Positions 61,999 to 64,000 of a DNA stretch of 64,000 nucleotides are shown piece by piece. Position 1 is the first letter of the stretch, and every line of letters starts with the position of its first letter. This DNA is from Aliidiomarina sedimenti. GTDB taxonomy: Bacteria; Pseudomonadota; Gammaproteobacteria; Enterobacterales; Alteromonadaceae. The translations under genes were made by a program, and so were the position numbers. The DNA lies in contig NZ_PIPN01000005.1 of assembly GCF_003986955.1 (NCBI RefSeq), positions 62,001-126,000 of the forward strand. The letters are read 5' to 3'. Under the pieces are notes generated by a model. That model did no database searches, was not told the DNA's origin, and saw only the letters and a program-made list of their open reading frames with translations.

Positions 61999-62874
61999 TT
62001 AATGCCTTTGATCCCTAACTAAGGTACTCAGATCCCAGTGCTGCCAAACGGGTCGGCAGCCATCCGGCAAACTCAAATTACGGCCTAGCTCGCGCCAGCG
62101 GCCAGGGCCATGGAAATCAGAACCTACACTGCTCAGCAGCGTATAGTCATTTGCCAGCTGCGCTAACTGCATGCGTTGCTGCGGCGCCTGTTGACCACTG
62201 GCCACCTCAAGCGCTTCGCCGCCGACATCTTTATAGGCAGCGAGCAATCGTTTCAGCCATTTACTACTCAACTGATACGCCAGTGGATGGGCCAGCGAGG
62301 TAACACCACCCGCCGCCTGAATAGCGCCAACCGCATCTTCCAGGCTACACCACTGAGGGGCCACATACGCACAGTTGCCCTTACCTAAGTAACGTTTGAA
62401 TGCTTCATCCACCGTCGCCACATAACCGCCAGCAACCAGAGCATCCGCCAAATGCTTACGGGTAATCACCTCATCAGCATTGTCCTGTCGCGCCCGCACT
62501 GACTGCAAACAACCTTCGTCAATTTGCTGTTTACTCAATTTGTCTATCATCTGCTCAGCCCGTTCCTGACGTGCCATTTGCTGAGCCGCAATCAACTCAG
62601 TTAGCGCTGTATTGTCAAGATCGAAACACCAACCCAGGACGTGAATTTCATGCCCCTGCCAGCGACTACTAAGCTCAATGCCTGTCACTATCTGTGGCAC
62701 CACGCCGCCAGTCAGTTTGGCCGCCCGCTGACGAGCTTCTGCAATACCGGCCACGCTGTCATGATCGGTTATTGAGATCACTTCGACATGGAGGTTGTGT
62801 GCACGCTCTACCAATTCGCCAGGCGTCAGGCTGCCATCCGACGCAGTGCTGTGCATATGTAAATCAATTTTCAT
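61999..62874 (-). CDS. PHP-domain phosphoesterase YciV (RNase AM)
   Basis: PHP-family 5'-3' exoribonuclease/phosphatase; E. coli YciV (RNase AM) trims 5' ends of rRNA and degrades pAp. The 291-residue protein has the metal motifs IDLHMHSTASDGSLTPGELV, ISITDHDSVAGIAEARQRA, VTGIELSSRWQGHEIHVLGW, SLAHPLAY and SSVGSDFHGPG. It is divergent from the trp leader, as in E. coli, and starts the yciV–yciO–scpA–scpB–rluB–deiminase operon. Confidence 0.93.
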   Translation of the reverse strand: MKIDLHMHSTASDGSLTPGELVERAHNLHVEVISITDHDSVAGIAEARQRAAKLTGGVVPQIVTGIELSSRWQGHEIHVLGWCFDLDNTALTELIAAQQMARQERAEQMIDKLSKQQIDEGCLQSVRARQDNADEVITRKHLADALVAGGYVATVDEAFKRYLGKGNCAYVAPQWCSLEDAVGAIQAAGGVTSLAHPLAYQLSSKWLKRLLAAYKDVGGEALEVASGQQAPQQRMQLAQLANDYTLLSSVGSDFHGPGRWRELGRNLSLPDGCRPVWQHWDLSTLVRDQRH

Positions 62875-62919: not shown

Positions 62920-62948
62920 TTGACAGCCTCAGTCTCCGTGGGTAAGGT
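62920..62948 (+). promoter_or_regulatory. Candidate trp operon promoter, TTGACA-N17-TAAGGT
   Basis: A perfect -35 TTGACA (62920-62925) and a weak -10 TAAGGT (62943-62948) with 17-base spacing. The start would be near 62955, giving a leader of about 310 bases before trpE. A 7-bp inverted repeat, TTCCTGA (62967-62973) with TCAGGAA (62981-62987), follows. I do not see a recognisable TrpR operator. Confidence 0.55.
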
Positions 62949-63015
62949 ATAGCCAACATAGACAACTTCCTGATCCGTACTCAGGAAATTTTCAGCAGAC
63001 TAAAGCGGATTCGCG

Positions 63016-63153
63016 ATGAAAATCATGCAAATCGATTCAACAACAGTGCACAACAACCAACCTAACCGTTGGTGGTGGCATCACGCAACTATGCGGGTGC
63101 TGTTGTTATCTTTTTGTCTGCAACCAAGCACGTTAGCGCCAACCAGAGCCTAG
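63016..63153 (+). CDS. trpL: trp operon leader peptide (45 residues, WWW control codons)
   Basis: A short frame with ATG at 63016 that includes three consecutive Trp codons at 63070-63078 (NRWWWHH, residues 19-21) and stops at 63153. It lies between the trp promoter and a strong terminator, directly before trpE. It is the classic attenuator sensor: at low Trp-tRNA the ribosome stalls on the Trp codons. The peptide is much longer than E. coli TrpL (14 residues) because ~24 residues follow the control codons. The Shine-Dalgarno is poor. Confidence 0.88.
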   Translation: MKIMQIDSTTVHNNQPNRWWWHHATMRVLLLSFCLQPSTLAPTRA

Positions 63154-63178
63154 CGTCAGCAACGAAAAGAAAATCAAT

Positions 63179-63210
63179 AAAAAAGCCCGCAACCTTTGCG
63201 GGCTTTTTTA
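63179..63210 (+). terminator. trp attenuator terminator (3:4 hairpin)
   Basis: Stem GCCCGCAA (63185-63192) with TTGCGGGC (63196-63203), 3-base loop, followed by six T. The left arm GCCCGCA can instead pair with TGCGGGT at 63092-63098, just after the Trp codons (2:3 antiterminator). A 1:2 stem, AACAACAG (63039-63046) with CTGTTGTT (63100-63107), encloses the Trp codons. Confidence 0.85.
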
Positions 63211-63265
63211 TTGAGCCCGGCAGAGGCAGGCGACGACAATCACTTATTAGATTCGGGAAAATACA

Positions 63266-64000
63266 ATGCAGCCGGCAAAAGATATACAACTTGGTTTTGT
63301 AGAACCTATTTCTATTCGCCTCGACTACCAGGCCGAACCCCTGAGCGTGCTAAATACACTGGCCACTAAGGATGGGGAGCACCTCTTACTCGAATCAGCC
63401 GAAGTCGATTCGAAACAAAACCTGAAAAGTTTGCTGATGGTGGATGCTGCGCTGCGTATTCGCTGTGACGGGCTGCAGGTTGAAGTCAGCGCACTGAGTG
63501 ACAATGGCACGCCGTTACTCGACTATCTTCAACAGCAACTGCTGGAGCAGCACGGCGACCAGTTTACACTTCAGCGTAATGGCACCGAGTTGAGCATTCA
63601 TTGTCCGCAAGCCCCCATTCACCTGAATGAGGATGCCCGATTGCAGGCTCCGGGAAACCTGACCCCACTGCGCCTTTTACAACAGTTAGAAAGCACCCGA
63701 GCGCACCCGTTTGCAGTGTTTCTCGGCGGCGTCTTCGGCTACGACCTGATCGCCAGTTTCGAAGATTTACCCGCGGTCAGTGCCGGCCATAACAACTGCC
63801 CGGATTATCAGTTCTATTTTGCCGAAAGCCTGATTGTCATGGACCACCAGGCGCAGCGTACTGAGCTTATCGCGACACTCATCGGCGGCGACAATCTGGC
63901 GCAACGCGAAGAACGGCTGTATCAGCGCATGGGCGAACTAAGCGCCCGTTTACAACGGCCAAAGCCAGTCAGCCCGGTGACCAGCGAAACGCCTGCAACC
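63266..64000 (+). CDS. trpE: Anthranilate synthase component I, N-terminal part (runs off the right edge)
   Basis: Converts chorismate to anthranilate with TrpG, the first step of tryptophan synthesis. The first 245 residues are in the window, starting at ATG 63266 with GGGA about 9 bases upstream. The N-terminal feedback-binding motif LLLESAEVDSK (residues 47-57) identifies TrpE rather than PabB. It continues with VFLGGVFGYDLIASFEDLP. The chorismate-binding catalytic region lies beyond the window. The gene follows the trpL attenuator. Confidence 0.95.
   Translation, partial: MQPAKDIQLGFVEPISIRLDYQAEPLSVLNTLATKDGEHLLLESAEVDSKQNLKSLLMVDAALRIRCDGLQVEVSALSDNGTPLLDYLQQQLLEQHGDQFTLQRNGTELSIHCPQAPIHLNEDARLQAPGNLTPLRLLQQLESTRAHPFAVFLGGVFGYDLIASFEDLPAVSAGHNNCPDYQFYFAESLIVMDHQAQRTELIATLIGGDNLAQREERLYQRMGELSARLQRPKPVSPVTSETPAT

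Follow-up and report, generated by a model that had tools for sequence, protein, structure and literature searches.

A probable ribosome-mediated attenuator of the trp operon in Aliidiomarina sedimenti with a leader stop codon far beyond segment 2

The region preceding trpE in the window analyzed here (the whole stretch of 64,000 nucleotides) is very probably an attenuator of trp operon transcription that works through the ribosome. This reading rests on comparison and computation, namely on the parts that can be recognized in the region, their conservation and covariation among relatives, and their predicted folds. The principle of attenuation is textbook matter, and what is unusual here is the geometry, in particular the position of the leader stop codon. 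The comparison with related leaders leads us to a further and tentative reading, which we hold to be possible: in the family, the stop codon of the leader peptide would double as a base-pairing part of the attenuator, whereas the lineage of the window would have escaped this double duty, resulting in a run-through attenuator with a basal level of its own.

The features of the locus are collected in table 1. The host genome (G000) has a size of 2.85 Mb and is 99.94% complete; among the named relatives found, Aliidiomarina soli is the closest, its TrpE showing 97% identity over 245 residues. Genes follow 3' of the attenuator in the order trpE, trpG, trpD, trpC/F, trpB and trpA, with neighbors overlapping by a few bases, and the divergent PHP-domain gene on the upstream side is one that we take to be yciV/trpH-like. 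The probable promoter was read from the sequence, the standard promoter scan (requiring at least four of the six bases in each hexamer) having reported no promoter at the trp leader. Its general form, TTGACA followed by a spacer of 16-18 bases and xAxxxT, is present in 61 of 154 leaders versus 2 after mononucleotide shuffling, and its distribution follows the genera: 60 of the 62 leaders from g1 (the genus of the window), g26 and g28 have it, compared with 1 of the 92 found elsewhere.

Table 1. Features of the trp leader region in the window, with the loci of the second leader found in relatives
Feature	Position	Strand	Remarks
Divergent PHP-domain gene, upstream neighbor	61999..62874	-	PF02811
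Probable trp promoter	62920..62948	+	TTGACA 62920-62925, 17-base spacer, TAAGGT 62943-62948; read from sequence
Leader peptide ORF (trpL-like)	63016..63153	+	45 aa, ATG start, TAG stop; start codon uncertain
Three consecutive Trp codons TGGTGGTGG, presumed stall site	63070..63078	+	In frame with leader ORF
Segment 1	63079..63087	+	Forms a compact hairpin with 63092-63099 (loop ACUA); -7.1 kcal/mol alone
Segment 2 core TGCGGGT	63092..63098	+	From comparison of 152 anchored leaders
Antiterminator outer part, 5' arm	63101..63121	+	Predicted pairing with 63159-63179 (MFE of 63088-63196)
Hairpin at top of antiterminator	63130..63156	+	Predicted; holds leader stop 63151-63153
Antiterminator outer part, 3' arm	63159..63179	+	Predicted, MFE of 63088-63196
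Segment 3 GCCCGCA	63185..63191	+	Common to antiterminator and terminator; two columns covary with segments 2 and 4
Intrinsic terminator (3:4)	63176..63212	+	Stem lengthened by A/U pairs; TGCGGGC 63197-63203; six T 63204-63209
trpE	63266..64000	+	First gene of trpE-G-D-C/F-B-A; continues beyond window end; 530 aa in L042
Second-leader loci picked by WFxWWL(L/Q)P			L117, L119, L120, L124, L129, L131, L138, L145, L153, L154, L159, L163, L169, L170, L173, L174, L176
Further second-leader loci			L179-L208; L209-L213, L215

A small ORF with clustered Trp codons, the translation of which is MKIMQIDSTTVHNNQPNRWWWHHATMRVLLLSFCLQPSTLAPTRA, lies directly 5' of the trp biosynthesis genes, and an intrinsic terminator stands between this ORF and trpE. 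All the elements named in an earlier, sequence-only reading of this DNA (the ORF, the Trp codons, the paired segments and the 3:4 terminator stem with its six-T tract) are found where that reading had placed them. The Shine-Dalgarno sequence 5' of position 63016 appears weak by eye, and 63025 and 63046 are further in-frame candidates for the start codon. Taken by itself, the motif of the Trp codons is common: TGGTGGTGG occurs twice in the window, a number also reached in 12 of 100 shuffles, and small ORFs with WW 5' of a terminator-like hairpin are present in two further cases on the minus strand of the window. Because the motif is not rare and has these two look-alikes, it is conservation that carries the case for an attenuator.

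Conservation was followed in the regions upstream of trpE in 17 genomes of the window's genus, 19 and 26 genomes of two related genera, and part of the family sample; in the latter, 195 genomes had a match, and the loci of 113 of them were read, in a non-random choice by similarity of their TrpE to that of the window. Four of the 166 upstream regions scanned gave no candidate (L003, L012, L141 and L155). The regions from L003 to L012 belong outside the family and were left out of the counts, giving 156 family regions, and L043, which is the same locus as L002 (A. soli), was excluded from the counts of leaders, covariation and stop codons. An ORF with WW or WWW followed by a terminator is present in 154 of these 156 regions, the Trp cluster of the 154 leaders being WWW in 146 and only WW in 8. 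In L141 (genome G008) no Trp leader was found within 750 bases 5' of trpE, whereas the genome of L155 has a leader at a greater distance, preceding a gene of DAHP-synthase type (L209). Anchoring on the GGG of segment 2 succeeded for 152 of the 154 leaders, the exceptions being L120 and L173. Between the window and A. soli, the stretch 63016-63212 differs at 1 of 197 positions, as against 58 of 1094 positions in the flanking coding DNA (Fisher p = 0.0012).

The GGG of segment 2 follows the last Trp codon at 12-18 nt in all 152 anchored leaders (at 16 nt in 90 of them), and the 2:3 core of the window, 63092-63098 with 63185-63191, consists of six Watson-Crick pairs and one G-U. The antiterminator shares bases with the terminator, and compensatory changes are found in both. 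At position -2 of the 2:3 pairing, 143 of 152 leaders have standard pairs and at position +3, 131 of 152, compared with 130 and 124 in the best of 2000 shuffles, which ignore the relatedness of the rows and the ranks of which are hence not probabilities. The same two columns form standard pairs within 3:4 in 146 and 151 of 152 leaders (best of 2000 shuffles, 129 and 126), with G-C and A-T exchanged in step across segments 2, 3 and 4. The two outer positions, in contrast, do not covary in 2:3 (103 of 152 at position -3, shuffle mean 101.0; 56 of 152 at position +4, shuffle mean 55.1). A free search for complementarity missed segment 2 in three of the 154 family leaders (L091, L143 and L157). 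The sequence-only reading had named conserved Trp codons and compensatory changes in 2:3 and 3:4 as its own test, and the family comparison, with the 154 regions and the 152 anchored leaders, bears it out.

These data also bear on whether the hairpin could be a plain terminator, for example of an antisense transcript, without any attenuator. The hairpin is flanked by A/T on both sides, and the consensus terminator scan lists that of 63176-63212 on the minus strand only; however, the conservation of the Trp codons at a near-fixed distance and the covariation across three segments argue against this explanation, as does the divergent orientation of the neighboring gene, and we consider it very improbable.

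The pairing that protects segment 2 differs from that originally proposed. Three mutually exclusive pairings had been read from the sequence, of which 2:3 and 3:4 stand as such; the third, 1:2 between AACAACAG (63039-63046) and CTGTTGTT (63100-63107), has its letters in place but shares no base with 2:3. Indeed, 63100-63107 does not overlap with 63092-63098, so that the two helices together would form a pseudoknot and are exclusive only in that sense. We have rejected this pairing as the main protector, the hairpin that does share bases with segment 2 being that of 63079-63087 with 63092-63099. The latter is compact, starts directly after the Trp codons, includes the core of segment 2 and could be masked when a ribosome stalls on these codons. 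Local folding pairs two or all three G of segment 2 with upstream bases in 148 of 152 leaders, whereas 99.2 are expected with the spacer shuffled. The outer helix of 63039-63046 with 63100-63107 is stacked on the compact hairpin in the predicted fold of 63016-63112 and might for this reason be thought to be the working protector, but it has no base in common with the 2:3 core, its 5' strand has already been translated once the ribosome stalls at the Trp codons, and compact pairing of the 1:2 type recurs in the 148 leaders just mentioned; we regard such a role as quite unlikely.

With the compact hairpin as 1:2, the attenuator would work as follows. When charged tRNA-Trp is scarce, the ribosome would stall on 63070-63078 and cover segment 1 (63079-63087), allowing segment 2 (63092-63098 together with 63101-63121) to pair with segment 3 (63185-63191) and 63159-63179; once 2:3 has formed, RNA polymerase would continue into trpE. 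With ample tryptophan, the ribosome would pass segment 2 and reach the stop codon at 63151-63153, upon which 3:4 would pair and transcription would end at 63204-63209. The predicted folding of 62958-63212 has a z of -5.74 with respect to 200 dinucleotide shuffles, and that of 63088-63196 an MFE of -33.8 kcal/mol (z = -4.07), with a long predicted antiterminator extending beyond the 7-bp core. In folds with a ribosome, for which the part covered by the ribosome was omitted from the folded RNA, a stall at the first or third Trp codon gives P(2:3) = 1.00 with RNA to 63192-63200 and P(3:4) = 0.86 or 0.96 at 63204, rising to 1.00 at 63212; when the ribosome is at the stop codon, the RNA 3' of it has P(3:4) = 0.87-1.00. 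In the model a stall thus would fix 2:3 before segment 4 emerges. With no ribosome, P(1:2) is 1.00 with RNA to 63110 and 0.98 to 63150, the equilibrium with RNA to 63192-63200 has P(2:3) = 0.82-0.83 versus 0.17 for 1:2, and P(3:4) is 1.00 from 63204. Since equilibrium keeps neither 1:2 without a ribosome nor 2:3 once segment 4 is out, the switch must hinge on the sequence in which the hairpins fold; the step deciding which hairpin forms first would be that of the classical model, by analogy. The stall, the order of folding and the re-forming of 1:2 behind the ribosome are what we infer for the working of this element.

Comparative trp attenuation is the subject of classical work, and the trp leader of E. 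coli is known to have its stop codon before or at segment 2. The window resembles the E. coli trpL-trpEDCBA system (RF00513) in the tandem Trp codons, the alternatives 1:2, 2:3 and 3:4, the terminator before trpE and, by the reading given above, antitermination depending on a stall. It differs in having three Trp codons instead of two, a stop codon (63151-63153) lying beyond segment 2 (63092-63098) and not before or at it, and a long compound antiterminator as predicted, with no TrpR or operator found. When 4 kb were searched, the Rfam model Trp_leader (RF00513) was matched over its full length at 35.2 bits (E = 0.00012), below its gathering score of 41, and by this score the leader of the window is not filed as RF00513. 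Thr_leader, Phe_leader and AbsR25 obtained more bits than Trp_leader but were set aside, all being below their own gathering scores and their alignments, as far as shown, resting mainly on the terminator. A match of Rfam Trp_leader 5' of trpE in Shewanella is mentioned in PMC2659441. Among the matches listed in our literature search (titles and starts of abstracts), none dealt with trp leaders of Idiomarina or its family.

Dual control of the E. coli type, combining TrpR with attenuation, is not seen in the host genome, where TrpR (PF01371) has no match over the Pfam cut-off (the E. coli control being positive). The same holds for all 196 sampled genomes of the family and all 62 genomes of three genera. 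Matches to PF01371 below the cut-off occur in 10 of the 196 and 5 of the 62 genomes (20.9-25.9 bits, cut-off 27, at about 35-85 of the model) and were taken as other helix-turn-helix proteins. Nor is there in the whole 64-kb window a sequence within three mismatches of the TrpR operator palindrome, in agreement with the previous remark that no such operator is visible. With neither TrpR over the cut-off nor an operator, attenuation is probably the main tryptophan control here, as had been surmised from the sequence. The family counts point to trp attenuation lacking TrpR as a common arrangement in the family as sampled, and repressor-free attenuation may be the family rule. According to PMC1183508, the his leader of Salmonella typhimurium is similar in combining attenuation without a repressor with an extra hairpin, situated between the pause hairpin and the terminator; it differs in responding to another amino acid, and the extra hairpin of the window lies inside the predicted antiterminator.

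The range of distances between Trp codons and segment 2, as well as segments 2, 3 and 4, are shared by the window with the 152 anchored leaders of the family; what sets it apart is the stop codon. The triplet 5' of the CGGG of segment 2 is in the reading frame of the leader in 98 of 152 cases, and is then a stop codon in 76 (52 TAG, 20 TAA and 4 TGA) and a sense codon in 22, 21 of which belong to g1, g26 and g28, the remaining one being L039. Opposite the third base of the stop codon, segment 3 offers a standard partner in 74 of 76 leaders (64 Watson-Crick, 10 G-U), more than in any of 2000 shuffles (maximum 68, mean 61.5); the partner is C opposite TAG in 42 of 52 leaders and T opposite TAA in 18 of 20. 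The second base of the stop codon shows no covariation (57 of 76, shuffle mean 56.1). The stop codon is thus commonly a part of segment 2 in the family, contributing its first bases.

The window has ATG (63091-63093) in place of this stop codon. The T of this ATG pairs with an A in segment 3, and T is also present in segment 4, as in A. soli and L045; a matched T-A-T is found only in these three leaders. All 13 leaders combining TAG or TAA with A in segment 3 at this place have an A-A mismatch, as also has L065 (CAG), and L044 (TCG) has C-A at the same position. In the window, 59 nt separate the GGG of segment 2 from the end of the stop codon, the largest distance among the 152 and the same as in A. 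soli, the next being 41 nt (L045) and 32 nt (L046). Stop codons at least 20 nt past the GGG define a far-stop class of 13 leaders among the 152, which requires at least four changes on a TrpE tree of 76 rows. Of the 17 rows that this tree has for the window's genus, the stop is far past segment 2 in nine, at the end of segment 2 in eight and at its start in none. The distance from stop to terminator is never less than 20 nt in the 152 leaders. The earlier statement was that the leader peptide is unusually long; what stands out is the position of the stop beyond segment 2. Length itself says little, given the uncertainty of the start codons and the 16 of 152 called leader ORFs that exceed 45 aa. 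In a run-through attenuator, the sense codon would leave the pairing base free to vary (position -3 of segment 2 being T, matched by A in segment 3 and by T in segment 4), and the ribosome would traverse segment 2 with the 1:2 hairpin re-forming behind it; we infer the direction of the change, that is, loss of the stop codon in the lineage of the window.

Does the displaced stop matter for regulation? According to Elf and Ehrenberg (PMC1183508), low basal read-through is attained either with a stop codon far downstream in region II or with an extra hairpin, and the basal read-through of E. coli trp is given as about 8%. With their formula as coded here, the value is 0.071 for E. coli trp; for the window it is 0.035, and placing its stop at segment 2 brings it to 0.024, the pause position and the point where the ribosome frees the polymerase being assumed inputs for the window. 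The formula therefore does not support the idea that the long leader lowers basal read-through. In a folding scan with a parked ribosome, segment 2 becomes uncovered again before the ribosome reaches the stop codon, and P(2:3) is often high with the ribosome between the two. For one footprint, P(2:3) of the window is 0.98 with the A site at 63145 and 0.01 at 63151; over the various footprints and modelled RNAs, its value at the stop is 0.01-0.55. The 13 far-stop leaders have a median P(2:3) at the stop of 0.46, compared with 0.00 for the remaining 139 which, taken at face value, would imply a raised rather than a reduced basal level unless 1:2 is the first to form and persists. The models hence do not favor a lowering of basal read-through by the displaced stop. 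The sequence-only reading had expected changed ribosome timing, and a use for it is not upheld by these results, the formula giving 0.035 versus 0.024 and the folding scan being ambiguous.

Two other candidates were considered and not adopted. We do not claim that the stop is placed so that the front of the ribosome blocks the antiterminator, an effect that depends on the footprint and the modelled RNA and fails in other leaders: P(2:3) at the stop is below 0.2 in only three of the 13 far-stop leaders, one of which (L050) lacks 2:3 even when stalled, and the near-identical L001 and L002 give 0.42 and 0.15. The stronger antiterminators of the 13 far-stop leaders (mean -24.3 versus -17.1 kcal/mol) were not used in view of their greater length (73.6 versus 51.5 nt).

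An adaptation to control without TrpR, in which the displaced stop would lower basal read-through by the principle of Elf and Ehrenberg, appears unlikely. A far-downstream stop is one of the two routes to low basal read-through named in that work (PMC1183508), and the host genome has no TrpR over the cut-off; yet the formula yields no gain over a stop at segment 2, segment 2 is exposed again with the ribosome at the stop, and although none of the 196 family genomes has TrpR over the cut-off, a segment-2 stop codon is retained by 76 of the 98 leaders that are in register. Neutral drift, by which the segment-2 stop was lost and translation proceeded as far as the following in-frame stop codon without consequence for regulation, has in our estimate a little less than an even chance. 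Beyond the codons dictated by segment 2 (RV, then L/M), the peptide is not conserved among L001, L044, L045 and L046, the offset of the stop varies (59, 41, 32, 28 and 23 nt) and the difference given by the rate formula is small. Drift fits less well with the recurrence of the far-stop class, the constant minimum of 20 nt to the terminator and the near-identity of the leader ORF between sister species. All three of these features could stem from RNA constraint alone. Given that the peptide after the codons dictated by segment 2 is unconserved, drift is at least as likely as adaptation. It concerns only the stop codon and does not conflict with an attenuator.

Other genera of the family present a second small Trp-rich ORF, situated 3' of the trp terminator and ahead of the first structural gene, which is a lead from relatives and no finding about the window. 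These ORFs first surfaced in a search asking only for clustered Trp. The degenerate pattern W-F-x-W-W-L-x-P-x-Y-A-G-stop is present in 96 of 395 family genomes and 17 of 52 genera; the reversed control pattern is found in none of the 395 genomes, and the 17 genomes listed for the genus of the window gave no match to the pattern itself. At the 17 loci picked by WFxWWL(L/Q)P (table 1), the next residues, which had not been requested, are (I/L)YAG-stop in 17 of 17, with varying codons. The 47 distinct copies, part of which were found by the pattern that itself fixes most residues, vary only at residues 3 (I/L/M), 7 (L/Q) and 9 (I/L), and their codons vary synonymously. Because the peptide is conserved rather than the codons, the sequences suggest a nascent-peptide signal, as in an arrest-peptide leader; a literature search for the peptide string found no mention of it. 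In the 45 copies listed, an ATG lies 30-39 nt past the stop of the second leader, and the next gene is trpE or of DAHP-synthase type. The ORF is far from trpE in L209-L213 and L215, where the next gene is an ORF of 337-338 aa, which in L209 is a DAHP synthase (PF00793, PF18152), the other five being alike by eye. In several genera, represented by these loci, a DAHP-synthase-type gene is thus the first behind the trp attenuator, ahead of trpE, so that entry to the aromatic pathway would share the tryptophan attenuator. As a separate observation, L027, L030, L031 and L214 have two units of Trp-codon ORF and terminator in tandem 5' of trpE, which are apparent double attenuators.

The family constitutes a natural series in which the leader stop codon lies inside segment 2, at its end or far beyond it, with no TrpR found. 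The idea from published modelling that the position of the stop helps to set basal read-through would thereby become testable with matched natural leaders.
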